In this document: in pieces, positions 2,020 through 64,000 of the stretch
Position numbering within the stretch: position 1 is the first letter of the stretch
Layout of the letters: every line of letters begins with the position of its first letter
NCBI GenBank assembly: GCA_030737835.1
Contig: CM060849.1
Coordinates: 5,828,001 to 5,892,000 of the forward strand
DNA length: 64,000 bases
Origin: Acorus gramineus
Taxonomy: Eukaryota > Streptophyta > Magnoliopsida > Acorales > Acoraceae
Reading direction: 5' to 3'
Program-made: the position numbers and the translations under genes
The notes under the pieces: generated by a model
Told to the model about the DNA's origin: nothing
Seen by the model: the letters and a program-made list of their open reading frames with translations, nothing else
Database searches by the model: none

Positions 2020-4803
2020 CTAAGTAACGGCGTGCATCACTGATTCCTCCGCTCGAGCGAGGGCGCCAGGCGAAGACGACCTCGGGCCAGGGGCAAGGCT
2101 CGCTAGGTTAGGGCTTTTGATGTCATCAAAGTCCCACGCAGCGTCATCGTCCTCCTCCTCCTCCCCCCCAGAAGAAGGCTCGGAGCTCGGACAAGGAAGT
2201 CGACCGCCAGCGTGGGATGGACCCTCGCTCCCTGGCGGTCTCCGCGAGAGGCACAGGGCCAACAATCCCTCAGCGTCGGCCATCGGAGTGTTCACGTCAA
2301 TGGATAGGGGGAACGAAGCAGCCCAGACGAAGGTCTGAAGGGCTGGGAAAACGTCTGCTCCATAAAACGGGCTCGAGAAGCCGACAATTCCCTCCCCAAG
2401 TCGACGCGTCCTACATTACACAGTAGCATGCACGTAAGCACGTAACTGCCAGGAAAAGGAAGAACAGCAAAGAGAAGACACAAGATGAGCACATACGAAG
2501 GGACCCGATGTCACGCCCCATGGCGGCCGTCCCCGAGACATGGCAATATATAAAGTATCAGCTATCAAGTACAAGAGGTCAATAACGAATCCAATAAATA
2601 ACACACAAAGTTGGAAAAACAATGATAACTGATAGTTCAACTAAAATGTCGAAGCATAACAGGGAAGCTTCAGCTCCACACCCAACACTGCCCCTGAAAA
2701 TGAAACAGTATCCGAGGGGTGAGCTACAAGCTCAGTGAGTGGCTGGAAACCAAACACCATAACAACAATTCAATACTCAGGCAATTTCCTTTCAAGGAAA
2801 ACATGGGTGGGAACCCAATGGATAACAAGGTCACGTGGTGGCAAGACCATCCTCACCCTCACCCTCACTCCCAGAGGGAGACTCTTGGGACTCTTGGGGA
2901 GAGACCATACCATTTGTTGAAGAGACGCGGAATTACTGGTCCACACAACACTACTAGATTATCTATATCAAGATAACTGCCCAACGATGTCTTTGAACAT
3001 CGATACATAACTTGACCCAACAACTATGAGAACGGACGAACAACGAATGGGTCACGCGACGACGTGACTTCAACTCATCCTCACCCTATCCCCCGGAGGG
3101 GTGACCCTAGGGACTTTTGGGATAATCCTTATGCTCTACACCCTTCGTAATCCAGTAGCCCTCTCCCGGGTAGCCTCTACCTGGTATACTCCCATGATCA
3201 GTACATCTGCCGAACGCATCGGTAGTACCTACAGGTGGGAGCCCTCTGTCAGGACAACTTCAACGCCATGCAGCTTCAACACGGATCCAACAAAGGGGAG
3301 AACGACTCCACACTCGCAATATTATCCGATAGCCCTCTCCCACTTTGCCTCTACCTGTCGACCTTCCACGATCGGTACATCAGCCAGATGTGTATCGCGA
3401 TACACATCGGTAGCACCTACAAGTGGTGGCACAAAACAGGACAGCTTCAACGCTGGGGCAACTTCGGTGCACGGCGATATTGGGAGGAAGACTTCACGCT
3501 CGCAATGCGAACCCTATAGAAAAATCAATTATCCTCGGTAATCCCATACCGATGCCATCAAAATATGCTTGAACTCCCATAGAGGTGCGTCGCTCAAACG
3601 AGGGAGTCGCCTCTACTCTCGCACAGACAAAAGCTCTAAGGCATAACCCAACAGGCGGTTCATACACTCGCCTAACATGGGTAGGCCTAGCTTAATGCCA
3701 TAACCACCGGCTTAACAAAACCGATAAGATAAAGAATTCTCCTGAATTCCAAATGAGTGCATCGCTCGAATGCAAGGGGCGATTACATCGCTAGCGCTCT
3801 AACTAATAAGGTACAACCCGACAGCGGGTCATACCCTCACCTATTTCAGATAGGCGTAATCAGTTTTTAACAAGAGCATATACATTACAAGAGAATTATA
3901 TCATAGTTATGTACATTAACTTACATGCACGATAACATAACAATTTATTATAGGGATACTCCCTAAGATGGATAAAGCATAAACAGTATATATATATATA
4001 TATACAACATACATACCAGGCATGGCCTAAATAATATGCATACACACATACAACAATACAAGCATTACCCTAATATGCGTTGGGTATCACCAACTTAAGA
4101 GGGAAGGGTTAAGCGCGATCTCGCGCACCAACCAGTGCATGCCGACACCAACTTAAGAGGGAAGGGTTAAGCGCGATCTCGCGCACCAACCAGTGCAGGC
4201 TGATAATCCCAAGCGGACCTAAGTCAAGTAGGAGCCACATCTACTTAGTCGGTTTACGCAAAGAGGGAGGGCGAGAAAAAGGGAAAGTCTCATCCTCTTC
4301 GGAAGCTGGTCATAGCTTTGCCCCAACAAAGTGGGGGCAACAACCATACCGCGTCCTCCAGTCTTATCACCAGGGAATATTAAGTATGCACCCGGTTATT
4401 AACCCAGGTTTAATCATGCTAGACATTACTAACATAGGGAGGTAGTACTATAAATAGGGACTACCTAAGGCATGCATATTCTATATATTCATATAAACAC
4501 ACATCACACATGCCCATACATGAAGGGCGCATGCAAACATAATAATTCACACATGAATATGATACATAGGCAAGTATATGGTAGAATAGGGGGTTCTACA
4601 CAATATACGAGCTATACTAACCTAGCATGCAAATATCTAGCATATTATGGGTTAGGAATGACCATACTACTTATCTAAATAAGTAGTATAGTCAGGGTGC
4701 CCAACGGATGCGCGACGCACGACTACGTGCATCCAACGCTTTCCAAAGGGTTGGATCGAACCACTCACCGATACCCGGATCGCCGCGCGTCCGGTCTACG
4801 AGA

Positions 4804-4805
4804 TC
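4804..4805 (-). other. Exon-exon junction inside the LTR: intron precisely missing
   Basis: On the minus strand the sequence reads CCCTCCCCCTGTTTTG then ATCTCGTAGACCGGACGCG, with no base between. In the copy at 57,984 the same two blocks are separated by 507 bases beginning GTAAGG and ending TTTTGTAG. The junction coincides with canonical splice sites to the base. Confidence 0.9.
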
Positions 4806-5016
4806 AAAACAGGGGGAGGGAAATGGGGAGATGCGGGGCCCTTGACACACCCACGACCACCTCAACCACTACCACCACCTCATCAGCATCTTCTCATGCC
4901 TTTCTTGGCCTTATTCACTCTCGCTTTTGCTTCTTCTTGTTCTTCTTCTTCTCAATAAACAAAGGAAAAGCAACCAAAAAGGGGAGCCAAAGAGGGCCTC
5001 GGATGGATTTTCTAGG

Positions 5017-5017
<1 letters not shown>

Positions 5018-5060
<43 letters not shown>
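5018..5060. repeat. (GA)n microsatellite in LTR leader
   Basis: A run of alternating GA lies in the LTR (CT on the LTR sense strand), about 215 bases upstream of the splice junction. The other LTR copies carry a CT-rich tract at the equivalent place (for example 58,386-58,408), so it is part of the family's leader rather than a random microsatellite. Confidence 0.85.
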
Positions 5061-5061
<1 letters not shown>

Positions 5062-6001
5062 CTCACTTTAGGGGGGGTGAGAAGAAGGAGAGAAAAAGGG
5101 GGGTGCACTTAAGCCTATTCTCACCCTCTAACACTTAAAATAACCAAAGGGTTGCTTAACCATTAAGCAAGGGGGGTGAGGTTACCAAAGGTCACCTTAT
5201 TCACCAAAATATCTAACACTATTCGACCAACCAAACCAGGAACTCTCAAAACTCAGATACGGTTTGGAACTGCTTATTTTTCAAAACATTACCGGAATTT
5301 GATGAAATTTTTATGGGTAGTACAAAATGGTACCATGACCCATAACATGCAGTTAGATTTTCAATCAGAGTACTCCAACTCCCGCAGGTAGCTAAAAGCT
5401 AAAATTTTAGCTACTCTAATAAAAAAAATAAGGCTTCAAATGACACAGGCATAACACCCGAACCTCATCGGCACAGGAGGCACCCCACGAATCGGGCATT
5501 GCCACGCCCCACCAAGGGCGACCACCTCCTCCTTCCACCTCCAGTCGACGTCCGGAAGAGAGAACAGGAGACAGCGTTGTCCATTGGCAACAAAATAAAA
5601 GCGGCGCCTCTCGTATGGGCACACCGCGAAGCGGTAGCGGTACATGACCTCGGCGATCCTGAGGCCATACCCCCTCGTCTCATTCAGGTAGAGCGCCGCA
5701 TGCAGGATCCGGAAGACGTTCGGATGCACCTGGAGCGGCGCGAGACCGAAACAGGTAAGCAAGGTAGGGATCAGAGGATGGAGAGGGAGATGGATAACCG
5801 AGAGATGGTGATGGGAGAAGTATGCCTCTCCTGGATGGAGCCCTCACCATCCTCGGCTCCTGGGACAAAGCGGACCCTCCTCTCAAAATACCTCTCGGAA
5901 GGGCGGCCATGGTGCACGAACAGGAGAACTAGGAGTATAAAAGAGGAGAGATTTTAGGAGAGTCGGTTGAGCAATAGCTCAGCCGATCCCTCCTCTCCTC
6001 C

Positions 6002-13301: not shown

Positions 13302-14906
13302 GTGGGAAACAATCATCCCATTGGCGGTGATCGTGGGGTGCAGGAGCTGTTTCGGCCGTTGCGGGAGGACCAAAAGCCACTTCGGGAGGAGTTTCGTCAA
13401 CAAACACGGCAGACTCTTCGTGAGGTGAAGGCTAGCATGAATCTCAATGCCGACAATAGACGATCTGGGAGTGACAGGATGCACACCGAGGGATTTGTCC
13501 AAGGCCAATGTGTTGCTTATAACGTTGTTCGACGACATTCTCATTATCTACCCGATTATGAGGATGACTCGGATGATGAAGGCGGTGAACTGTACGACTA
13601 TCAGCTGAGAAAGCGGCACACGTACTACTACAATTATTTTTCAAAGGTGGACATCTCCTATTTCAACGGTGATTTGCCAATCGATAAGTTCCTTGATTGG
13701 ATCTTAGATATTGATAAATTCTTTGAGATAATGGAGCTGCATGAAAAGGAGATGGTCATAATGGTGGCGCTTCGACTCACGAGTAGTGCCGCTAATTGGT
13801 GGGACCACTTTCAAAGGACCAGACAACGACAAGGAAGAGCACCTATTCGAACATGGAGGAGGATGAGACAATTTCTCATGGATCGCTTCCTTCCTCTAGA
13901 TTATGAACAATATTTGCTCCAATTTTACCATAATTGTTGCCAAGGTAATCGTTCCGTATTCGACTATACCGCTGAATTTTTAAAATTTTCTGGTCAGTAT
14001 AACCTTGCAGAAGCTAAATGGCGACGAGTGGCCCATTATCTTAATGGGTTGAGGTCTTCAGTTCGAAATCGTATTGCTTCAGAAGAGATTTACAGCTTGA
14101 CAGAAGCAATCTCTGCGGCCATAAAAGTGGAATCACAACTGGAGAGATCAAGGGTGCACATGATGTCTAAAGGCTCTTCCATGATCAACCCGCTACATGT
14201 TGCATTAAGTCAAGATATGGTTGATGGATCGATGGAGAAGACCGAAGAAAGTCCACCAGAAAATCAAGAGAATCTAGTGACCGATCCCCATGATCAACCT
14301 CTAGTTGAATCAGAAATTGATGAGGACAGGGCAAATAAAGAAGAGGAGGATGTTGTTCTCTCCGTCGAATCTGAGAAGATTATCGGAGGAGAACAAGAGA
14401 AGTCATTTTTTTATTCCTTAGTGGTGACTCCAGAAATAGAAAAACTTCTAGTTGAATCAGAAATTGATGATGATAGGGCAAATAAAGAAGTGGAGGATGT
14501 TGTTCTCTCCATTGAATCTGAAAAGATTATCGGAGGAGAACAAGAGAAGTCATTTTCTTATTCCTTAGTGGTGACTCCAGAGATAGAAAAACCCCTGCAA
14601 ACGTTCGTGTTGCAGACTACATGCCACATCAACATGAGCGTTTTTTATGCCATCGTCGACAACAGTAATAATGGGGACATTGCAACTACCACAATGGTCG
14701 ATTTGATTGAGAAGGAATTTAAAATCAAGAAGATGTCTCTCCTCTTGCCAAATGTCAAATACAAAGATGCATCAAATAAGATGGAAGAAAAGGTTTTAAT
14801 CTCTCCTATTGGTGTATTTGATTACATCAAATATCATCCTCCTGATCATCTAAGATCTTTTCTTCTTAAATTCGAGGACGAATTTTTTTTAAGAAGAAGA
14901 GACTGA
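13302..14906 (+). CDS. Gag protein of the TR-GAG element
   Basis: This is a single uninterrupted frame of 534 codons, opening after a TAA at 13,293. The first in-frame codon resembling a start is GTG at 13,302. The first ATG is at 13,437 (residue 46), so the ancestral ATG may be lost. Residues about 110-270 are a retrotransposon gag domain: KVDISYFNGDLPIDKFLDW, ALRLTSSAANWWDHFQ, and FDYTAEFLKFSGQYNLAEAK. Residues about 334-431 consist of two copies of an acidic 49-residue module beginning LVESEID (DNA at 14,301 and 14,448, period 147 bases, in frame). There is no CCHC knuckle and no protease. The stop TGA at 14,904-14,906 is formed by the first three bases of the 3' LTR. Gag would form the particle and package RNA, with pol supplied by another element. 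An intact frame in a moderately diverged element suggests recent selection or chance. Confidence 0.88.
   Translation: MGNNHPIGGDRGVQELFRPLREDQKPLREEFRQQTRQTLREVKASMNLNADNRRSGSDRMHTEGFVQGQCVAYNVVRRHSHYLPDYEDDSDDEGGELYDYQLRKRHTYYYNYFSKVDISYFNGDLPIDKFLDWILDIDKFFEIMELHEKEMVIMVALRLTSSAANWWDHFQRTRQRQGRAPIRTWRRMRQFLMDRFLPLDYEQYLLQFYHNCCQGNRSVFDYTAEFLKFSGQYNLAEAKWRRVAHYLNGLRSSVRNRIASEEIYSLTEAISAAIKVESQLERSRVHMMSKGSSMINPLHVALSQDMVDGSMEKTEESPPENQENLVTDPHDQPLVESEIDEDRANKEEEDVVLSVESEKIIGGEQEKSFFYSLVVTPEIEKLLVESEIDDDRANKEVEDVVLSIESEKIIGGEQEKSFSYSLVVTPEIEKPLQTFVLQTTCHINMSVFYAIVDNSNNGDIATTTMVDLIEKEFKIKKMSLLLPNVKYKDASNKMEEKVLISPIGVFDYIKYHPPDHLRSFLLKFEDEFFLRRRD
14888..14903 (+). promoter_or_regulatory. Polypurine tract before the TR-GAG 3' LTR
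   Basis: TTTAAGAAGAAGAGAC directly precedes the LTR start TGATG. It is the expected primer site for plus-strand synthesis and also encodes the last residues of gag. Confidence 0.75.
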
Positions 14907-38892: not shown

Positions 38893-39452
38893 CTGCAAGG
38901 TAAGGGCATCAAATTTGGTGAGTAACATCACAATTTAACACTTAGAAATCACTAGAAATACCAAAGACTTAGACATGCACGCATACGGGCTCGCACGCAT
39001 GCAAGCACGCGCGTATGCACGCATGCCCGAGTGCCCCAGCACCTACCCGAGACCCTGGGCAGCCCCACGCATGCCCCAGCACGCGCACGCACGCGCGCAC
39101 TGGCACCTAGCCGCGCGCCCAGACACACGCCCAGGCGCACTGCCCCACGCGCGCATACGCTCGCGCACACCCCACTCGCTGCCAGCATCCGCGCGCACCC
39201 GCGCGCCCGCTCCGCCCGAACCCGCGCTCACGCGCCCGCCTGTGCCTGCCAGCGCCCCTCTGCGCGCGCGCCTGCGCGCGCACGCGCGCAGACAGGCCCC
39301 TGCGCGCGCCCAGCCATCCTTAACCCCTTTTTAACCCCTTTTAACCCCTCCCCCACACTTCTCACTCACCCTAAACCAAATACCTAGCATGCATGACTTC
39401 CCCACAACCCCCTAAGCCATGAAAAACCAAGAAAAGAAGGGGAAGAGCTCAC
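38893..39452 (-). other. Predicted intron in LTR A'
   Basis: On the minus strand exon 1 ends CCCTCCCAAG, the intron starts GTGAGC and ends CCTTACCTTGCAG, and exon 2 begins ATCTCGTCGG. Length is about 560 bases. It lies at the same position as the introns of the other LTR copies but its interior is the GC-rich CACGCGCGC block. Confidence 0.7.
38965..39310. repeat. CpG-dense alternating purine-pyrimidine block (A')
   Basis: Degenerate GCACGCGCGC and GCATGC-type sequence with very few A/T tracts. It lies inside the predicted LTR intron. Long open frames on both strands here are composition artefacts. Confidence 0.85.
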
Positions 39453-42014
39453 CTTGGGAGGGGGAATGAAAGGGGGAGATTCGGGGGCCCTCGATGCACC
39501 CGCGACCACCTCAACCACCACCACCACTACCACCACCTCCTCAGCCCTCCTCAGCCTTCTTTGGCTGCAAATCAGGGGGGGGGAAGACATGAAAAGGGAG
39601 CTAGAGAGAGGGGGATCAACAACAACAACAACACAAACACAAACCTTGGTCTTCCTCCTTCACCTTCTCCTTCCTTTGCTTCTTTGTCCTCCTTCTCCAC
39701 ACACAAAGAGAGGAAAAAGAGACCAAGAGAGGGAGAGAAAGAGAGGTCCACGAGTTGGGAGAGAGGGGGAGAGAGAGAGAGAGCAAAATGGTCATTTTCA
39801 TGCCCAAATAGTGTTTTGGGGTGACCATAAGGGGGTGGTGAGGTTAGGGTTAGGCTCACCCTCACTCAACCACTTATTTTTGCTTTATTAGGAAGCGTGC
39901 GGAGAAGCACCACACACTCGAAAATATCTCACCCACCGAAACCCAGTAACGGCCAAACCCGGATGCGATTCGGAACTGCATATTTTTCAAAATGTTACCG
40001 GAATTCGATGAAATTTTTATGGGTAGTACTAAACAGTACCAGGACCCATAATATGCAGTTAGATTTTCAATCAGAGTACTCTAACTCCCGCAGGTGGCTA
40101 AAAGCCAAAATTTTAGCTACTCCGATCGAAAAAATTAAAAGGCCCTGAATGACCCATAAGTGACCAAGGCTTAACCGAAATTGTCACGCCCTAGGGCGGC
40201 CAACCCCGGGACGCGGTAAGTGTATATATCATATCAGAAACCTACACAGGAGGTCAAATATATATACTCTAAACCACAAATAAAATGACAACACAGATCA
40301 AACAGGGCTGACATAATATATACACAATATAGCGGAAGCTAAAACTGAATCTGTGAATAAACATTCTACAGACTCGATACTCAATCATCTGTCCTGTGAG
40401 AGCCAATATACACCAATACAACTAAATACATACAAATGCGTGCCAAGCACGGTAATACAATACATATGGTCAAGAAGGGATGCTGATAACCTCTGGCACT
40501 CGCGGAACGTAGCGCTGCTCCGCTACTGAAGAAATCCCTCGGAAGGCTCCAACTGCTGCTCCGGCTCCAGCTCAGGCTCAGTGACAACTGGGGAAAAACA
40601 TATGCGAGGGGTGAGCCACACGCTCAGTGAACGGCACAACCCATGCATCACAGACAATATTGACCACAACATATTAATCCATTCTAATCCACAATTTTTC
40701 CATAATCCAGATCATACCCTCACCTTTACCCCTCAACAGGGGACTCAGGATGTTGGGACTAACAATTATTCACAAACAAAACCAGCGGGTCACTCATCGC
40801 CAACCCACTACACCCTCACCCTCACCTTTCCAAAGGTGACATAGGATTTTGGGACTGATAATCATCCATTCACATATCCAGTAGGTCGCTCATCGCCAAC
40901 CCACTACACCCTCACCCTCACCCTACCACGGGTGACATAGGATTTTGGGACTGACTAGGCTGTTGGTCACCCTTGGTCCACCGATGGTCTCTCCCTCCAC
41001 TCCGTAGGCCGCCTGGTCTACTCCCACATTCAGCACAGTCCGTCACCAAATCAGGAAGTGCCTACTGATGGGAGCCCTCTGTCAGGAAGGCCCTGTCTAA
41101 CGTTGGGGGTAGTCTCTACCAGATCCAACGCAGGGAACAGAACAGCCTAATCCATACGCAAGTGATCCACTCGGATCCGCCGACTACACGTCTCAACAAT
41201 TCAAATGTCATGAACTCTTCAGAGTTCCTCCAGGGCGCATATCCAAGATGCGGGGAAAATAGTACAATCAAAAGCAATGTTGTAATATCATTAGGGGAAA
41301 GAAACTTGGGAGGGTGGCGTGAGTTCCCAATACAGGATACCCCGACAACCAAACAAGGAACACGGAGTACCCTAACACGGGTCTCACCGCTGTCCTCGCA
41401 AGGCCCCTCCCCTATAATATTCACTACATATGCTAATAATCATACCAAACATACAACTCTAACGTTCTGAATTCCTCAGAACCCACCAGGGCGCATAACT
41501 ACGATGCGGGGAACATGCATAAGGTTATAACAGGGTGGAATATCATTGGGGGAAAGAAACTCGGGAGGGCAGCGTGAGTTCCCATTATAGGACACCCCGA
41601 CAACCAAACAAGGAACACGGTATACCCTAACCCGGGTCTCACCGCTGTCCTCGCAAGGCCCCTCCCCTATAATATTCACTATAACATGCAATTCAACAAA
41701 TACTAGCATTTAATTTAATAAATAAACTAGTAGGACACATGCATTGGTCGGGCTTCCTAACAAGGAACCAGGAGACATGCTGCATGGCTCATACACATCC
41801 TAAGGGTGCAAGTCCCTAACATGCAAAGTCTAGGGTAGCATGCATTTCTACATTTTCATCATGCTCACATGCAATACATATTATTACAGGTTAATATAAT
41901 CCACGGTGCCCCAGGAGAGGTCGGTATACGCCCAAGTGCGTATAACACCTCTCTACTGGGTTGGATTGTCCCACTCACCGGAACTCGGGTCGACGCGCGA
42001 CAGTCCGTCGAGAT

Positions 42015-42941
42015 CTGCAAGACAGGGTATTAACTGGGTAAGTATAAATCCGCAAGTATTATTAAATACTTAAATAAATACCCAAAACCCACCACAAACA
42101 CCTAACACTCGGGCAAACGTGCACGCGACCCGCACGCACGTTAGCCCGAGCACTCCGGCAACCACCCGCACGGCCACCCGACCGCCCGGGTGCACCGCGC
42201 GCTTCAGCCCGCGCACCCCGCACGCTTCGCGCCGGCCCGCGAGCACCCCGCGCGCAGCGCCTCGCCCCGCGCGCACCCCGCGCGCACCTCCGCCACCTTG
42301 CCGCACCTCGCGCGCACCTCGCACGCACCTCGCACACCTTGCCGCACCTCGCGCGCACCTCGCACGCACCTCGCACACCTTGCCGCACCTCGCGCGCACC
42401 TCGCACGCACCCCGCCTCGCGCCCGTGCACACCGCCTCGCGCCCGACCTCCAGCCTCCACTCACACGGCATCCGCACGACCAGCCCCCCCCCCCCCGGCG
42501 CCCGCCCGCGCGCACGCTCGCGCGCACGCACGCGCGCACGCCCAGCCAGCCCTCTGCGCACGCTGTCGGTGCTGCCTGAGGCCCCCAGCCCGAGCACGCC
42601 TGCACTGCCAGCCCGTCCCGCTCGCCCAGCACGACCAGCGCCCTGCACCAGGCCCGCGCGCACTCGCGCGCACGCCGCGCGTACGCACGCCCGCGCACGC
42701 ACGCGCGCCTGCCCGCGCGCACCCGACCTGCGCGCCGCCTGGACTGCTGCTGCTGCTGCTGTTTGGCCCGGACGACCTGCCACTGCCCGAGCGCCACCAC
42801 CACCCCTCCCTTGACCACCGACCACCTCCAACCACCTCCGACCACCCTCCGATGACCCCCACTGCCGCCGACCACCCCCAAACACCAAACCCACCTCCCT
42901 AGCATTCATCTATGCAAGAAAGAGAGGGAAAGGAGGCTTAC
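42015..42941 (-). other. Predicted intron in LTR B1
   Basis: On the minus strand exon 1 ends CCCTTCCCTCG, the intron opens GTAAGCC and closes CCTGTCTTGCAG, and exon 2 begins ATCTCGACGG. Length is 927 bases, most of it the GC-rich block 42,100-42,735. Confidence 0.72.
42100..42735. repeat. CpG-dense block with CACCTCGCGCGC repeats (B1)
   Basis: Includes at least three copies of a roughly 50-base unit, CACCTTGCCGCACCTCGCGC followed by GCACCTCGCACGCACCTCG (42,290-42,410), and alternating GCGCACGC tracts. It lies within the predicted intron. Confidence 0.85.
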
Positions 42942-52710: not shown

Positions 52711-53062
52711 GCCTTTAAGTGAGGTCCACGCCCACCAATAGTGCACCCCTTCTATTCATCTTCTTCTCTCTCTCAAGCTCTCTCAAATCTCCCTTCCCCT
52801 TCCTTTGTTTCCCCCTTTTGACCTAGTAGAAGTGGTGGAAAAGAAAAACCATAGAAGGAGAAAAGCTTGGTAAGGACCCGATCTATCTTTCCATGGTTTC
52901 GTTTTTGTGTTTCCCTTTGTTTTTCATCCTCTCATGGCACCTCTTCTCCTCTGTTTTCAGCCCCTCTTAGGCTGAGAAGGGGTTTGGTGGTGGTGGCTTT
53001 GGTGGTGGTGTTTCGGTGCGCGAAGAGCACCCAATTTTCCCTCCCTTCCTTTCCTCCCTTGG

Positions 53063-53712
53063 GTAAGCTTTCCTCCCCCCCTATTTCTTGTTTAGATGCA
53101 TGTTAGGATGTGTTTTTGAGTATGAATGGTATGCATGGTGGTTAGGGGTTTGGGAGGGCTGAGGGAGGGGGTGGGAAGGACTCGGGCGCGCTTGCGGGGT
53201 CATCCGCGCGCGTGCGCTCGAGTCTGCGCGCGTAGGCAGTGCAGGCGCGCGCGATCGGGCGCGCTGGGGGTGTGCGTGTACGCGCGGACGCGCGGGTGTG
53301 CGCGCGGAGTGCTGCGCGGGGGCGCAGTGCGCGGGGTGCGCGTGGGGGTGCGCGCGGGGTGCTGCCCAGGGGCGTAGTACCCGCGGGTAGACACAAGGCT
53401 GGACGCGCGGTGCGCGCAGGCGCGCGCGAGCGTGTGCGCGCGGGCGGCAGCGTGTCTGGACGCGCGGGCAGGGGCATGGCAGTGCGCCCGGGGCGCGGGC
53501 GTGCGTGCGTGCGCGCGCACCAGTGCGTGTGCGTGTGGGTGGCCGTGCGCATGGCTGTCGTGGGTGCGGGAGGATGTCGGGGCACTCGGGCTCGCGTGCG
53601 TGCGGGCCGTATGCATGCTTGTCCGAGTGTAGGGTATTTCTAGCGTATTTCTAGCTTATTTCTTATGTATTTGTGTAGATTACTCACCATTTTGATTACC
53701 CATGTCTTGCAG
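53063..53712 (+). other. Predicted intron in LTR B3
   Basis: Exon 1 ends CCTCCCTTGG, the intron starts GTAAGCTTTCC and ends CCCATGTCTTGCAG, and exon 2 begins ATCTTGACGG. Length is 650 bases, with the GC-rich block 53,165-53,610 inside and AT-richer sequence before the 3' site. Confidence 0.72.
53165..53610. repeat. CpG-dense alternating block (B3)
   Basis: GCGCGCGTGCGC-type sequence inside the predicted intron, comparable to 42,100-42,735 and 46,630-47,560. Confidence 0.85.
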
Positions 53713-57983: not shown

Positions 57984-60900
57984 TGTCATGCCTATGTCAT
58001 TTGGAACCTTATTTTTTTCAATCGGAGTCACTAAAATTTTGGCTTTTAGCTACCTGCGAGAGTTGGATTACTCTGATTTAAAATCTAACTACATATTATG
58101 GGTCCTGGTACCGTTTTGTACTACCCATAAAATTTTTATCGAATTCCAGTAATGTTTTGAAATATATGCAGCTCCGACACGTATCCGGGTTTTGAGAGTT
58201 CCTGGTTTGGTTGGTCGAATAGTGTTAGATATTTTGGTGAATAAGGTGACATTTGGTAACCTCACTCCCCCTTGCTTAATGGTTAAGCAACTCCTTTGGT
58301 TATTTTAAGTGTTAGAGGGTGAGAATAGGCTTACGTGCACCCCCCTTTTCTCTCCTTCTCATCACCCCCCCCCCAAAGTGAGAAATCTCTCTCTCTCTCT
58401 CTCTCTCACCCTCCCTAGAAAATCCATCCGAGGCCCTCTTTGGCTCCCCTTTTTGGTTGCTTTTCCTTTGTTTATTGAGAAGAAGAAGAAGAAGAAGAAG
58501 CACAAGAGAGAGTGAATAAGGGTGAGTGTGTGTGTTGTTGTTGTTGTTGTTTCTCTTCTCTCTATCTCCCTCTCATGCCTTTATCCCCTGTTTACAGCCA
58601 AGAAAAGCATGAGGAGATGCTGATGAGGTGGTGGTAGTGTTTGTGGTGGTTGAGGTGGTCGTGGGTGGGTCGAGAGCCCCTAATCTCCCCATTTCCCTCC
58701 CCCTGTTTTGGTAAGGCAGATCTCTGTCTTCTAAAGATCTTTGTGAATCTAGTAATTAGAGGCATATTTTTGGGATTGTGTCCTTATGTCATAAGATCAT
58801 CTATGTGTCTAGTTGTTATATATGAAATTTGGGGTCATTATGATAGCTGTGTTGTAAGTTAGAACCTGTTTTGCATGGCATGTCCAGATTCGAGTGGGAA
58901 TTGACATGCTTCTGAAAATAATTTATTTCGGGATTTTAGAAGCAAAATTATGTGATAATGTCTATATGGATTATGATCCCAGCATGTCATATAATGTGTA
59001 TGATTTATTTCATAATTTTTGGATGTGTAGTTCGTGCTGTGGAGATCAAATAGTAGGGCTGGTTGCAGCAGGTTTAGCAGTTTTGCTCGATTGTGTGTCA
59101 AGGAGTTGTTATGCATGTTGTGGAAAGTATCAAGAGTTAGGGTCTTCATGAAGTACGCTTATATGTGTGTCAGGAGGTTCCATATATTAATTGTGGATCA
59201 TTGGTTGTGTTTTGTAGATCTCGTAGACCGGACGCGCGATGATCCGGGTATCGGAGAGTGGTTCGATCCTACCCTTCGGGAAGCGTTGGATGCATGTAGT
59301 CGTGCGTCGTGCATCCGTTGGGCACGCTGACTATACTACTTATTTAGTAAGTAGTATGGCCATGTCTAACCCATAATATGTTAGATATCTTGCATGCTAG
59401 GCTTATATCGCATGTATAATATTCATGTATGAATGACTGAGTCGCATGCGCCCTTCGTGTATGGGCATGTGTGATGTGTGTTTATATGAATGTATAGCAT
59501 ACGCGTGCCTTAGGTAGTCCCTATTTATAGTACTACCTCCCTATGTTAGTAATATCTAGCATGATTAAACCTGGGTTAATAACTAGATGTATACTTAATA
59601 TTCTCTGGTCATAAGACTGGAAGACGTGGTATGGTTGTTGCACCCATCTTGTTGGGGCAAAGCTATGACCAGATTTCAAAGAGGATGGGACTTTCCCTCT
59701 CTCTCGCCCTCCCTCTTTGCGGAAACTGAGTAAGTAGATGTTGTTCCTACTTGACTCAGGTCCGCTTGGGATTATCGGCATGCACTGGTTGGTGCGTGAG
59801 ATCGCGCTTAACCCTTCCCTTTTTAGTAGGTGATATCCAACGCATGCTTAAGTTATACCTTGTGTGCTTATATGATTAATGTGCCTCATATGCATGTGTA
59901 GTTAGGCCATGCCTTGTATGTATGTTGCGTGATTTATTGTTTATGATGTATAGTCATGTTAGGGAGTACCCTATAATTAATCATATGTTATCACTCATGT
60001 TAAAACTATTTAGGCCTATCTGAAATAGGTGTGGGTACGACCCGCTGTCAGGTTGTACCTCATTAGTTAGAGTGCGAGCGATATAATCGCCACCCCGCAT
60101 CCGAGTGATGCCGTAGAATGGAATTCAGGAGAATTCATTGTTGTATCGATTTTGTTAAACCGGTGGCTATGGCATTAAGTTAGGTCTACCGGTGCTAGGC
60201 GCATGTATGAACCGCCTGTTGGGTTATGTGCCTTGGGCTTATTTCTGCGTGAGAGCAGGGTAACCCCTTGCGTCTGAGGGACGCACTCGTGTGGGAGTAC
60301 AAGAGTATTCGTTATCGTCAATATGTGATTATCGAGAGTAGTTGACTTTCCCATAGGGTCGCTTTGCGAACGTGGGGTGCTTCCTCTCGACATCGTCGTG
60401 CGTCGAAGCTACCCAGTGTCGAAGCTGTCCTGTTTGGTGCCACCACTTGTAGGTGCTACCGATGCGTATCGCGGTACACATCTGGCTGATGTACCGATCG
60501 TGGAAGACCAACAGGTTGAGGCTAAGCGGGAGAGGGCAACCAGATGATATTGCGAGGGTGGAGTCGTTCTCCCCTTTGTTGGATCTGTGTTGATGCTGCA
60601 TGGCATTGAAGCTGTCCTAACAGAGGGCTCCCACCTGTAGGTACTACCGATGCATTCGATAGATGTACTGATCATGGGAGTATACCAGGTAGAGGCTACC
60701 AAGGAGAGGGCTACCGGATGACGAAGGGTGTAGAGTATAAGGATTATCCCAAAAGTCCCTAGGATCACCCCTCCGGGGGCTAGGGTGAGGAAGAGTTGAG
60801 TAACGTCATCACATGACCTTAATACCCATCGAGTATACTCTGGGTATGCTACTCTTAACGCTTGAGGTATCGTAGTATAGCTCTTCCTCATAGTGGAGGG

Positions 60901-61773
60901 ACTGGTTGGTTAGGTTATCCAGTAACACTAGGTGTTATGTTTAACCTTTGTTTCTCCCCGGGTGTCCCAAGAGTTTTTCTTTCGGGGCAAGGCGGGGGAT
61001 GAGTTGAAGTCACGTCACCACGTGACCCATGCATTGTTCGTCCGTTCCCATAGTTGTTGGGTCCAGTTATGTATCGATGTTCAAAGACATCGTTGGGCAA
61101 TTATCTCGATGTAGATAATCCAGTAGTGCTGTGTGGACCAGTAATTCCGTGTCTCTTCAAAAAATGGTATGGTCTCTCTCCCCAAGAGTCCCAAGAGTCT
61201 CACTACGGGAGTGAGGGTGAGGGTGAGATTGGTCGCGCCGCCGTGTGACCTTGTTATCCATTGGGTTTCTACCCATGTTTTCCTTGAGAGGAATTTGCCT
61301 TAGTATTGAATTGTTGTAATGGTGTGTGGTTTCCAGCCACTCATTGAGCTTGTAGCTCACCCGTCGCGTACTGTTTATTTTTCAGGGGCAGTGCTGGGCG
61401 TGGAGCTGGAGCTTCCCTGTGGTGGGGTTCGAGTGCGTGGAGTGTCCCGTTCGGAGGTTAGCGAGTGCGAGGATGTCAGCAGTCCTAGTGTCATTTATGT
61501 ATTTGAAATCCTACATGTTGCACTGGTTGTACTTTATTTGGACTAGACTTGGCTCTCGTCGGACAGTGATTGTGTATTCAAGTCTATAATAATATTTTTG
61601 GTGTACAGACGTCTTGATATTTTTATGCTTCCGCATTTTAGTTGAACTATCAGTTATCATTGTTTTGCCAACTTTGTGTGTTATTTATTGGAGTCACTGT
61701 TGACCTCTTGTGAATGATAGCTGATACTTTATATATTGCCACGTCTCGGGGACAGCCGCCCTGGGGCGTGACA
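57984..61773 (+). mobile_element. 5' LTR of the Tekay/Del-like element (family A, unspliced form)
   Basis: Starts TGTCATGCCTATGTCATTTG and ends GGGGCGTGACA before the primer-binding site. It aligns over its length, in opposite orientation, with the solo LTR at 2,509-5,456. It contains a CT tract (58,386-58,408), the 507-bp intron, two copies of a block GGGCTCCCACCTGTAGGT-x-CTACCGATG (60,430 and 60,624), and GTGAGGGTGAGGGTGAG at 61,211. TCATG precedes it; the matching duplication is outside the window. Confidence 0.88.
58711..59217 (+). other. Predicted spliceosomal intron in the 5' LTR
   Basis: Exon 1 ends CCCCCTGTTTTG, the intron opens GTAAGG and closes TTGTGTTTTGTAG, and exon 2 begins ATCTCGTAGACC. 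Length is 507 bases and it is AT-richer than its flanks. The solo LTR at 2,509-5,456 lacks precisely this segment, which supports splicing of the element's RNA. It lies downstream of the presumed start of transcription, in R/U5. Confidence 0.85.
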
Positions 61774-61776
61774 AGA

Positions 61777-61790
61777 GTTTGTATCAGAGC
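61777..61790 (+). promoter_or_regulatory. Primer-binding site of the Tekay/Del-like element
   Basis: GTTTGTATCAGAGCC lies a few bases after the LTR. It matches the tRNA-Met site TGGTATCAGAGC with one change and establishes that the preceding 3.8 kb is a 5' LTR. Confidence 0.85.
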
Positions 61791-61856
61791 CTAAGTCTAG
61801 TCGTAGGATTGTCATCCGAGTACTCTGGTTTTAGAAGTTCATCTTAGGTTGCTGAC

Positions 61857-61935
61857 ATGCCTCCTGGCATCCGTGGACGTGGACGTGGCCACCCCTGGAC
61901 CCCCCTTAAGTTGTTGACTGGGTCGACTGAATAGG
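61857..61935 (+). pseudogene. Gag start remnant
   Basis: ATG near 61,857 opens MPPGIRGRGRGHPWTPLKLL and stops within about 25 codons. An Arg/Gly-rich start is usual for Tekay-type gag. The remainder is not recognisable. Confidence 0.45.
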
Positions 61936-62183
61936 GACAGTTGTTGGGTCCCTTGTTGTGAGATTAAGGCTTGGACATCAGATTCCAGCCCAGTAGTATG
62001 GTAGTGATGGATTGATTGCAATTTCTAAGGTATGGATCGCATCTCGATAATGGAGCTTCGTCCCCGTGCATCGATATTGCTGGTAACCATGGAGTTCACG
62101 TACGGCACCAGCTTCCCGTTTTGAGGATGTGGCATTTTTATCATTAATGGGCAATGTCTTCTTTCGTTTTCCTGATCGGGATT

Positions 62184-62660
62184 AAGGGGCCTTGCGAGGT
62201 CATCGTTGAGACCCGGGCAAGGGTGCTCCGTGCTCCTTGTTTGGTTGTGAGGATATTCTATATCGAGACCTCATGGTGCCCTCCCAAGGGGTTCTTTTTC
62301 CCTAGTCATGGAATATATTTGAAACATCTATTTGATGATCGCCTTTCCCTCTCACTTGGAAGGTGCTGTAGCAAGTGGTGTTGCGTACGATCGGGATTGG
62401 GTGTGTTCTTTTTCAGCTTTGTGGGCAATTGCTTATGGACTGGGTTCCATAGCCACATCTGGAGTCACTTCGATATATCATCGTGCGTTGTAGCCACCCG
62501 GTAGAGGCCAGAGCCCTGTGAGGTGCTCCCAGATACTATCTAGGATGCTTGTTGGTGCGCCCATATGGCAGAGATAGTGGGCATGGGAGGCTACCAGGTA
62601 GAGGCCACACTGGGAGAGTGCTACTGGATGATGTCAAGAGCGTGGACTCCCCGTGATGAA
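62184..62660 (+). repeat. LTR-like segments inside the internal region
   Basis: GGGGCCTTGCGAGGTCATCG, GAGACCCGGGCAAGGGTGC and CTCCTTGTTTGGTTGTGAGG (62,184-62,265) match LTR B2 around 48,190-48,260. GTAGCCACCCGGTAGAGGCC, GTGGGCATGGGAGGCTACC and GGGAGAGTGCTAC (62,489-62,625) match the LTR A block near 60,680-60,715. They lie after the primer-binding site, where LTR sequence is not expected. Confidence 0.7.
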
Positions 62661-63009
62661 TTTGCCCATTGACTGCAGGATGCTGGAGTTCCAATGGTTG
62701 TAGTTGGGCGAAGAGTCGGTGGTGGCATGTGAAGCACAGTTCTCGATACTGTCACGTTTTGCCCCCACATTGGTCACAAATGAGGAGACGCGATGCTAGC
62801 GTTCGTGATGGGGCTCAACCGCCATATCAGGTAGATGACATCGCATAGGCATTGTTGGGGTTTGACGACCTCCTGTTGCGTGTCTTACGGATTAAGTGCA
62901 GTTGTGTGGCTTACCCAGCGTGTCAGGGTCATCATGAGCTCCAGATTGAGGAGCATCGAGGAGCGGAATTTGGACTTAATCGTTCAAGGAGTTGTTTTGT
63001 TCTTCCCGT

Positions 63010-63215
63010 AGGGGTTGAAGATCAGATACCCCTTGCCACAAATTGATGATCTATTTGACCAACTCTGGGAGCCAGTGTCTGCTTTTAGATCGATCTTCGC
63101 GCGGGGTACCAAAATTGGAGATCCGGGAGTCGGGCATTCCGTTGATGACCGTTTCAAGCACTACGAGTTTTAAGGGGTGCCATCAAGGTTGCCAAATGCG
63201 CCGGATGCCTTCGGG
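63010..63215 (+). pseudogene. Reverse transcriptase fragment
   Basis: One frame reads [21 protein letters not shown], then DDRFKHYEF and, after a stop, PSRLPNAPDAF. These follow the RT order [38 protein letters not shown] of plant gypsy elements. Parts in between are mutated. The catalytic YxDD region is missing because the sequence passes directly to integrase. Confidence 0.75.
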
Positions 63216-64000
63216 ATCTCAAAAGTTTTATTGGGTCTCCGTGGACTACTATGGGGTAGTCTTCGTTAAGGTTGGCAATGTAAAGGCGATATGGGTAACT
63301 TCGTTGCCCCTTGGTTGGCATGCCCTCAGGCAAAGTTTGAGAATCATCGTCGCGTGGAAAGCGTCAGTCCATCAAGGATCCTCAGTTGACGTGGGAGTGA
63401 GTTATCATGGATTGTTGCAGGCTGGCTAAAGTCACATTCGGGTCACGACACTGTCTAAGTGATCATTGACCGACTGACTAAGCCCACGCTTCCCTCCCTA
63501 TCCAACTGACTGAATCCCTGGACGCCTTGACACGGGTTTTTGCCTTCGTGATTATTCGTCTTCATGGCACTCTGGTTGGTGCTATTTTGGATTGAGACGC
63601 AGGCTTACTTTGAGATTGTGGCGCATCCTTGGCAGGCTTTGGCCCGAGCCTCCATTTAAGTATAGCGCGTTTCACCGCCAATGGATGGCCAAGAAAAGAG
63701 GATTATTCAGACCTTGGAGGACATGCTAAGTGCCTGCGTGCTCGACTTGGTGCAGTTGGGTGAGTCACCATCCATTTGTTGGGGTTTGCCTACAAGACAA
63801 ATGCCATTCGAGCATCCAGATGGAACTGAAAAAGGCACTCTACGGGCATAGTTTTATACCTCCCTTGTGTTGGGACGGTTGTTGAGCGCCAGTTGGAGCG
63901 GCCGAGAATTATTTATTTGACCTTGCGGTGGCCAAGATGGTTCGTGTGTGCATCCGCACCTCCCAGAACCGACTGAAGGGATACGCAGGTCATCATCGCC
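63216..64000 (+). pseudogene. Integrase of the Tekay/Del-like element, heavily mutated
   Basis: In shifting frames the sequence gives LACPQAKFENHRR (zinc-binding tail of the HHCC region), SHSGHDTV, VIIDRLTKPTLP, LTESLDALTRVFAFVIIRLH, then GQEKRIIQTLEDMLSACVLD near 63,685-63,750 and HSSIQMELKKALYGHS with PPLCWD near 63,808-63,880. These match, in order, the conserved path of chromoviral integrase (usual forms: GHDAIWVIVDRLTKSAHF, GQSERTIQTLEDMLRACVLD, HSSI..APFEALYG). At least five frame changes and several stops are needed. It continues beyond the window. Confidence 0.82.

Follow-up and report, generated by a model that had tools for sequence, protein, structure and literature searches.

Exact and joint absence of two intron-like LTR segments in copies of an Acorus gramineus retrotransposon family, probably through reverse transcription of spliced leader RNA

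LTRs with and without introns in the 64-kb window

The window analysed here is a stretch of 64,000 nucleotides of the Acorus gramineus genome, and it holds several related LTRs (Table 1). The 5' LTR near its right end opens with TGTCATGCC and closes with GGGGCGTGACA, as seen both by reading and by alignment, and it is followed by sequence that resembles a tRNA-Met primer site. The features that characterize LTR retrotransposons, namely an LTR with TG...CA ends, a primer-like site, a polypurine tract and a 5-bp target duplication, are all represented, wherein the individual features come from different copies. An initial annotation of the window had described a 507-bp segment inside this LTR, and direct reading and alignment agree on its position and ends. 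A second such segment, which that annotation did not mention, is located upstream of it. We refer to the upstream segment as intron A and to the 507-bp segment as intron B. The GT...AG ends, together with exact absence from other copies, are those expected of spliceosomal introns, and we consider the segments to be putative introns on this basis.

Table 1. Positions in the window of the LTRs, putative introns and flanking features
Feature	Position	Strand	Remarks
Solo LTR without introns A and B	2509..5456	-	Joins 4,909/4,908 (A) and 4,805/4,804 (B)
Target-site duplication CCCGA, one side of solo LTR	2504..2508	.	
Target-site duplication CCCGA, other side of solo LTR	5457..5461	.	
Intron B, sister LTR 1	38893..39452	-	GTGAGC...CTTGCAG, GC-rich body; read, flanks aligned
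Intron A, sister LTR 1	39565..39644	-	GTTTGTG...TTTGCAG; read
Intron B, sister LTR 2	42015..42941	-	GTAAGCC...CTTGCAG, GC-rich, tandem repeats
Probable intron A, sister LTR 3	52870..52960	+	GTAAGG...TTTTCAG; reading only
Intron B, sister LTR 3	53063..53712	+	GTAAGC...CTTGCAG, GC-rich
Intron-bearing 5' LTR	57984..61773	+	TG...CA ends, primer-site-like sequence after
Intron A	58522..58597	+	76 bp, GTGAGT...TTTACAG, 49% T; exact 76-base gap in solo LTR
Short exon (exon 2) between introns A and B	58598..58710	+	Alignment; 113 bp
Intron B	58711..59217	+	507 bp, GTAAGG...TTTTGTAG, 39% T
Downstream exon (exon 3), start, within LTR	59218..59717	+	Only first 500 bases marked

The internal region that follows the 5' LTR (61774-64000) looks decayed and short, and its frames are broken. 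By eye, a start resembling that of gag is seen near 61.86 kb, with integrase-like remains near 63.6 kb. The Tekay/Del label used in the initial annotation is putative: three decayed internal pieces were tried against Pfam without any hit, and a PDB sequence comparison of the decayed internal pieces likewise returned nothing. Since the internal stretches that were read are decayed, the enzymes may come from another element, and the family of the 5' LTR is possibly non-autonomous. Elsewhere in the window, a 534-aa open frame at 13302-14906 carries a Retrotrans_gag domain (E 1.7e-10) and apparently belongs to another element.

The solo LTR lacks both introns. It was originally proposed that this copy has its own CCCGA duplication and joins the flanks of the 507-bp segment without an extra or missing base, and alignment with the 5' LTR bears out both points, with exon end 727 aligned to 4,805, exon start 1 aligned to 4,804 and 0 bases extra or missing. 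Intron A is also removed to the base, leaving a gap of 76 at 58,521/4,909. The same alignment reveals no target duplication of more than 1 base for intron B. Other gaps of 12 bases or more are also seen: one is a repeat difference of 14 bases, three are insertions in the solo LTR (43-58 bases) and two are deletions (208 and 203 bases), and none of these has GT...AG ends as printed. The sequence TGTTTTG that ends exon 2 is found again in intron B, 3 bases short of its end. Had a deletion occurred between these two repeats, TAG would remain, and the solo LTR carries no TAG there. The solo LTR also has a tandem duplication of about 58 bp (4088-4203) relative to the 5' LTR.

There are three sister LTRs in the window, with 69-89% identity in aligning stretches. 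The claim that they keep introns at the homologous point holds for all three, at each of which a GT...AG segment was read. Their intron B bodies are GC-rich, 560-927 bp long and partly alike among themselves, whereas the body in the 5' LTR is T-rich and 507 bp long (the composition for sister LTR 1 was taken on a stretch 7 bases longer than its intron). None of the three sister bodies aligns to the 507-bp body in a blastn comparison. Thus, intron B is conserved more in its place and ends than in its body. Over 57 columns, intron A of sister LTR 1 aligns to that of the 5' LTR with 84% identity. Many GC-rich tandem repeats occupy 42213-42725 within intron B of sister LTR 2, including a 41-bp unit present in 3.6 copies.

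Exact joins and their distribution across the genome

The genome searched comprises 398.6 Mb in 137 contigs. An intron B query found at least 40 genome places at 90-100% identity, and a query spanning the junction of the solo LTR found at least 40 places, with the window's own solo LTR included. The listed places are ranked by similarity, and therefore both sets of 40 rows are samples chosen by similarity. The junction rows are L009-L038 (30 rows, wherein L009 is the window's solo LTR) and L069-L078 (10 rows).

Among the matches listed, the exons flanking intron B meet at the splice point in 39 of 40 rows. The script that classified the B junctions called 36 rows exact and four gapped; in three of the latter (L028, L029 and L071), the only difference is in a run of C about 12 bases upstream. 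The imprecise row is L069, in which about 10 exon bases are gone as well and intron A is intact; this copy looks like the product of an ordinary deletion. Three of the 39 exact rows are chimeric, with unrelated sequence upstream (L014, L030 and L036). Exact absence from many copies at separate places, by which the initial annotation proposed to judge its reading, is thus what these matches exhibit. The segment has fixed rather than varying ends, and it lacks the target duplication of its own that a separate transposon would have.

Intron A is also absent in 35 of the 36 exact rows with a readable leader, again among the matches listed. These joins include two that the script placed in its 'other' category but that by reading are joined at the first AG (L024 and L026), and two whose A join carries a short odd residue (L070 and L077). 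The exact row that keeps intron A is L017, in which the 3' site of this intron is changed from CAG to CTG. Conversely, the intron A region is kept in all 36 intron-B-bearing rows printed, as judged by eye and by column fill, and two intron-B-bearing rows are chimeric at the 5' side of this region (L057 and L066).

The joins can also be compared with deletions elsewhere in the same copies. Strict 12-letter matching to a GT-AG-bounded segment of a relative succeeds for the A join in 13 of 40 rows and for the B join in 21 of 40. When pair events are counted, the GT-AG fraction is 25/34 in the A zone and 150/185 in the B zone. L061, L063 and L043 account for the nine A-zone misses, and the B-zone misses printed involve comparators with another segment start (GC, GA or a longer segment). 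Background deletions have ragged, repeat-bounded ends with a mean of 8.8 equivalent placements, versus 2 in the leader, and they are GT-AG in just 11 of 147 kinds (counting events with up to 30 placements).

A sample that is blind to the introns consists of the 40 best matches to exon 3 of the 5' LTR. There are 23 copies with the 507-type intron (three with its 3' part only), seven with the GC-rich type, one without the intron and nine that are unreadable. Thus, intron-bearing copies dominate near the 5' LTR, and the exactly intron-less outcome is rare there (1 of 31 readable copies). One member of this sample, L104, has lost intron B exactly and keeps intron A with an intact 3' CAG; at the 5' side of its intron A, the G-run is longer than in relatives.

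The expected spliced junctions are GAATAAGG/CCAAG and CTGTTTTG/ATCTCG. In 15 of the 40 rows listed, the A join is instead located at the next AG, after CCATGAAG rather than at ...CAG/CCATGAAG (L077, with its residue, is counted here). When the first AG is destroyed, the spliceosome is expected to use the next one. Two intron-A-bearing copies with the same exon-1 end, L017 and L043, have a mutated first AG, which reads CTG and CTA, respectively, and seven of the fifteen next-AG rows match L043 exactly at that join. L015 and L034 have the next-AG join and no mutated relative in the sample; the match of L015, L063, has an intact CAG. Other exon ends also have their own intron-bearing counterparts. 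The join TCTTATG/CTTTCGTTGG in L075 is that of the intron-bearing copies L062 and L092, and at the A join L011 matches L063, L023 matches L056, L028 and L029 match L096, and L009 matches L004, L006, L046 and L058. Variant exon ends with such matches argue for several separate events.

The absence of the intron is polyphyletic on both sides of the junction. A tree from downstream sequence (1,071 columns, 60 rows) has 11 changes of intron state, at least 10 of which are forced by well-supported (starred) branches, and a single change is found in 0% of 200 bootstrap trees. A tree from upstream sequence (660 columns, 75 rows, intron columns removed) has 15 changes, at least 11 of them forced by well-supported branches, and again 0% of bootstrap trees have a single change. 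A tree with all intron-less rows in one clade is rejected for the 60-row set (p-AU 1.6e-40). If only losses are allowed, the counts on the downstream and upstream trees become 13 and 19, which are upper readings. The two trees disagree for some rows, which makes recombination likely, and hence all of these counts are label changes rather than events. Trees of recombining elements overcount, and with recombination there may be fewer independent events.

The 60-row set was obtained from a 79-row set by removing L039, L047 and L072, in which exon 3 was wrongly located, 11 long-branch rows, and L049, L021, L045, L048 and L006. The 79-row tree has 17 changes, with the misplaced exon 3 of those three rows and many long branches included. 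The 75-row upstream set is without L039, L046, L047 and L072. On rechecking, exon 3 was misplaced in no further row without introns, and no wrongly located intron start turned up in the intron-bearing rows covered.

The intron-less copies also carry signs of how they were inserted. In 31 of the 40 rows listed, the 5' end of the LTR could be located, at a distance of 598-806 bases upstream from the junction. Processed copies made by LINE machinery are not expected to carry U3, and its retention in these rows argues against LINE-type processing, which we reject. By reading, a polypurine tract precedes the intron-less copies L021, L032, L038 and L071, which indicates that these are 3' LTRs. L038 and L072 lie on the same strand 15 kb apart and differ at 43 of 2,045 aligned bases (97.9% identity), whereas their identity to the next copy, L073, is only 94.0%. 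Introns are absent from both, and identity and spacing make them a well-supported candidate for an intron-less LTR pair. Both daughter LTRs take their leader from one RNA, and thus both LTRs of a new element made from spliced RNA would be without introns. The pair fits reverse transcription of spliced RNA, for which it is the one such example. In an intron-bearing pair 9.3 kb apart (L051 and L007), the intron is present in both LTRs. L031 and L032, which are both intron-less and 5.7 kb apart, are not counted as an LTR pair because they are 96.0% identical to each other and 96.8% and 96.3% identical to L033. Two intron-less LTRs on different contigs (L012 and L016) share the same 25-base 5' flank, and they probably stem from one insertion that was later duplicated, or else from insertion into the same repeat.

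Possible origins of the intron-less copies

The explanation that we favour, with a probability of about 0.86, is that spliced leader RNA has repeatedly been reverse transcribed and then integrated by LTR-element machinery. The LTR leader would be transcribed as exon 1, intron A, the 113-bp exon, intron B and exon 3. Most new copies would derive from unspliced RNA and keep their introns. Repeatedly, however, spliced RNA would serve as the template for reverse transcription, with integration by the LTR machinery to follow. This scheme presumes that transcription and splicing of the leader take place in vivo, that transcription starts upstream of intron A, and that a particular element supplies the enzymes. 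The initial annotation had already read the intron-less solo LTR as the reverse transcript of a spliced RNA. That reading is strengthened by the joint loss of intron A, by the next-AG joins, by polyphyly in the upstream and downstream trees alike and by the intron-less LTR pair.

Other origins were also weighed. In a variant of the favoured explanation, one or a few spliced-RNA events created intron-less masters, and amplification together with template-switch recombination then spread their leader. Recombination is likely given the different placement of some rows in the two trees, and the intron-less rows do form clades, such as one in the downstream tree where they account for 12 of 13 rows (the thirteenth is the intron-bearing sister LTR 1). 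However, the leader joins differ among copies, both in the use of the first or next AG and in exon ends that have local intron-bearing matches, and the tree of the side with exons 1 and 2 shows polyphyly just as strongly; we consider this variant rather unlikely. Conversion of genomic LTRs by cDNA of the spliced transcript, with no new integration, would likewise give exact joint loss, and gene conversion by cDNA is a standard model of intron loss. Just one intron-less LTR pair is well supported, as such conversion would allow, but the absence of introns from both L038 and L072 would need two conversions, and we regard this route as improbable.

Ordinary DNA deletions whose ends resemble splice sites by chance have L069 as an example, a single imprecise row of 40 in which intron A is kept. 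The other rows are exact, two separate segments are lost jointly with an ambiguity of just 1 base, and the low GT-AG fraction among background deletions makes such a coincidence extremely unlikely. The reverse polarity, in which intron-less LTRs received the 507-bp segment as the insertion of a transposon or introner, would suit the finding that its body is unalignable to the introns at the same place in the sister families. Yet there is no target duplication beyond one base, three sister LTRs have GT...AG segments with other bodies at the same site, and intron A behaves alike, so that we give insertion almost no credence. Intron gain was also rejected on the ground that polyphyly would require repeated insertion of one body at one base without duplication.

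If spliced RNA is indeed reverse transcribed, each such event erases the intron, and either unspliced RNA is the usual template or the intron is restored. Restoration could occur if the R region is long and includes both introns, in which case they would return by way of an early strand transfer onto a 3' LTR that is unspliced. A broader proposal, which we offer only tentatively, is that this group of plant LTR elements has retained LTR introns at a fixed place across diverged families. Their introns would lie in R, be re-imported by strand transfer to an unspliced 3' LTR and be deleted by full copying of a spliced 5' leader, and intron-less lineages would still transpose.

Comparison with known spliced retroelements

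Plant LTR retrotransposons are generally intron-less, with Ogre and EVADE among the notable exceptions according to the portion of PMC12786077 available to us. Judging mostly by titles and the starts of abstracts, we found no description of introns inside plant LTRs. The transcripts of Ogre, BARE1, EVADE and the sunflower elements Tyran/Varan are also spliced, as the accessible parts of PMC6317226, PMC3735527, PMC12786077 and PMC7730604 describe, but the first three have introns that serve expression and are located within coding regions or between them. For BARE1, the available part of PMC3735527 reports that splicing is seen and that DNA copies of spliced RNA were not amplifiable, and its argument is that retrotransposons have to keep spliced RNA out of replication. 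Against this view, at least as that part presents it, the present genome holds many copies that resemble replicated spliced RNA.

In intron-marked Ty and in the SAKE/ONSEN reporters (PMC12786077, in the portion available), intron loss similarly marks passage through RNA, but there the intron is artificial, whereas the present family would carry a natural marker. Since its copies look like replicated spliced RNA, intron state could serve as a natural tag that tells which RNA pool was replicated, with what frequency and at what time. The family also makes it possible to test how an intron persists in an element whose own life cycle is able to remove it, and whether introns in the leader aid expression or shield the element from silencing.

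Two animal systems offer the closest parallels. The splice in the MLV SDARE case, which concerns an animal retrovirus, reportedly removes internal coding sequence and not introns that lie wholly within an LTR. The likeness lies in the natural splicing of RNA from an LTR element, after which the spliced form is packaged, reverse transcribed and integrated, as described in the accessible part of PMC10496198. LINE-1 SpIREs resemble the present copies in that segments of the 5' untranslated leader are spliced out and the RNA is reverse transcribed and integrated, and in that sequence changes alter the splice form (PMC5860796, PMC5860798, in their available parts). By the same partial accounts, SpIREs differ in that they are non-LTR elements and are generally evolutionary dead ends (PMC5860796, PMC5860798). 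In the present family, the introns are inside LTRs and occupy the same place in sister families. Its intron-less copies form clades in the downstream tree, a pattern in which repeated loss and amplification look the same. Exact exon joins in integrated copies, as in SpIREs and SDARE, are nevertheless seen in 39 of the 40 rows listed, and by analogy these copies are best explained as an LTR counterpart of LINE-1 SpIREs and MLV SDARE.
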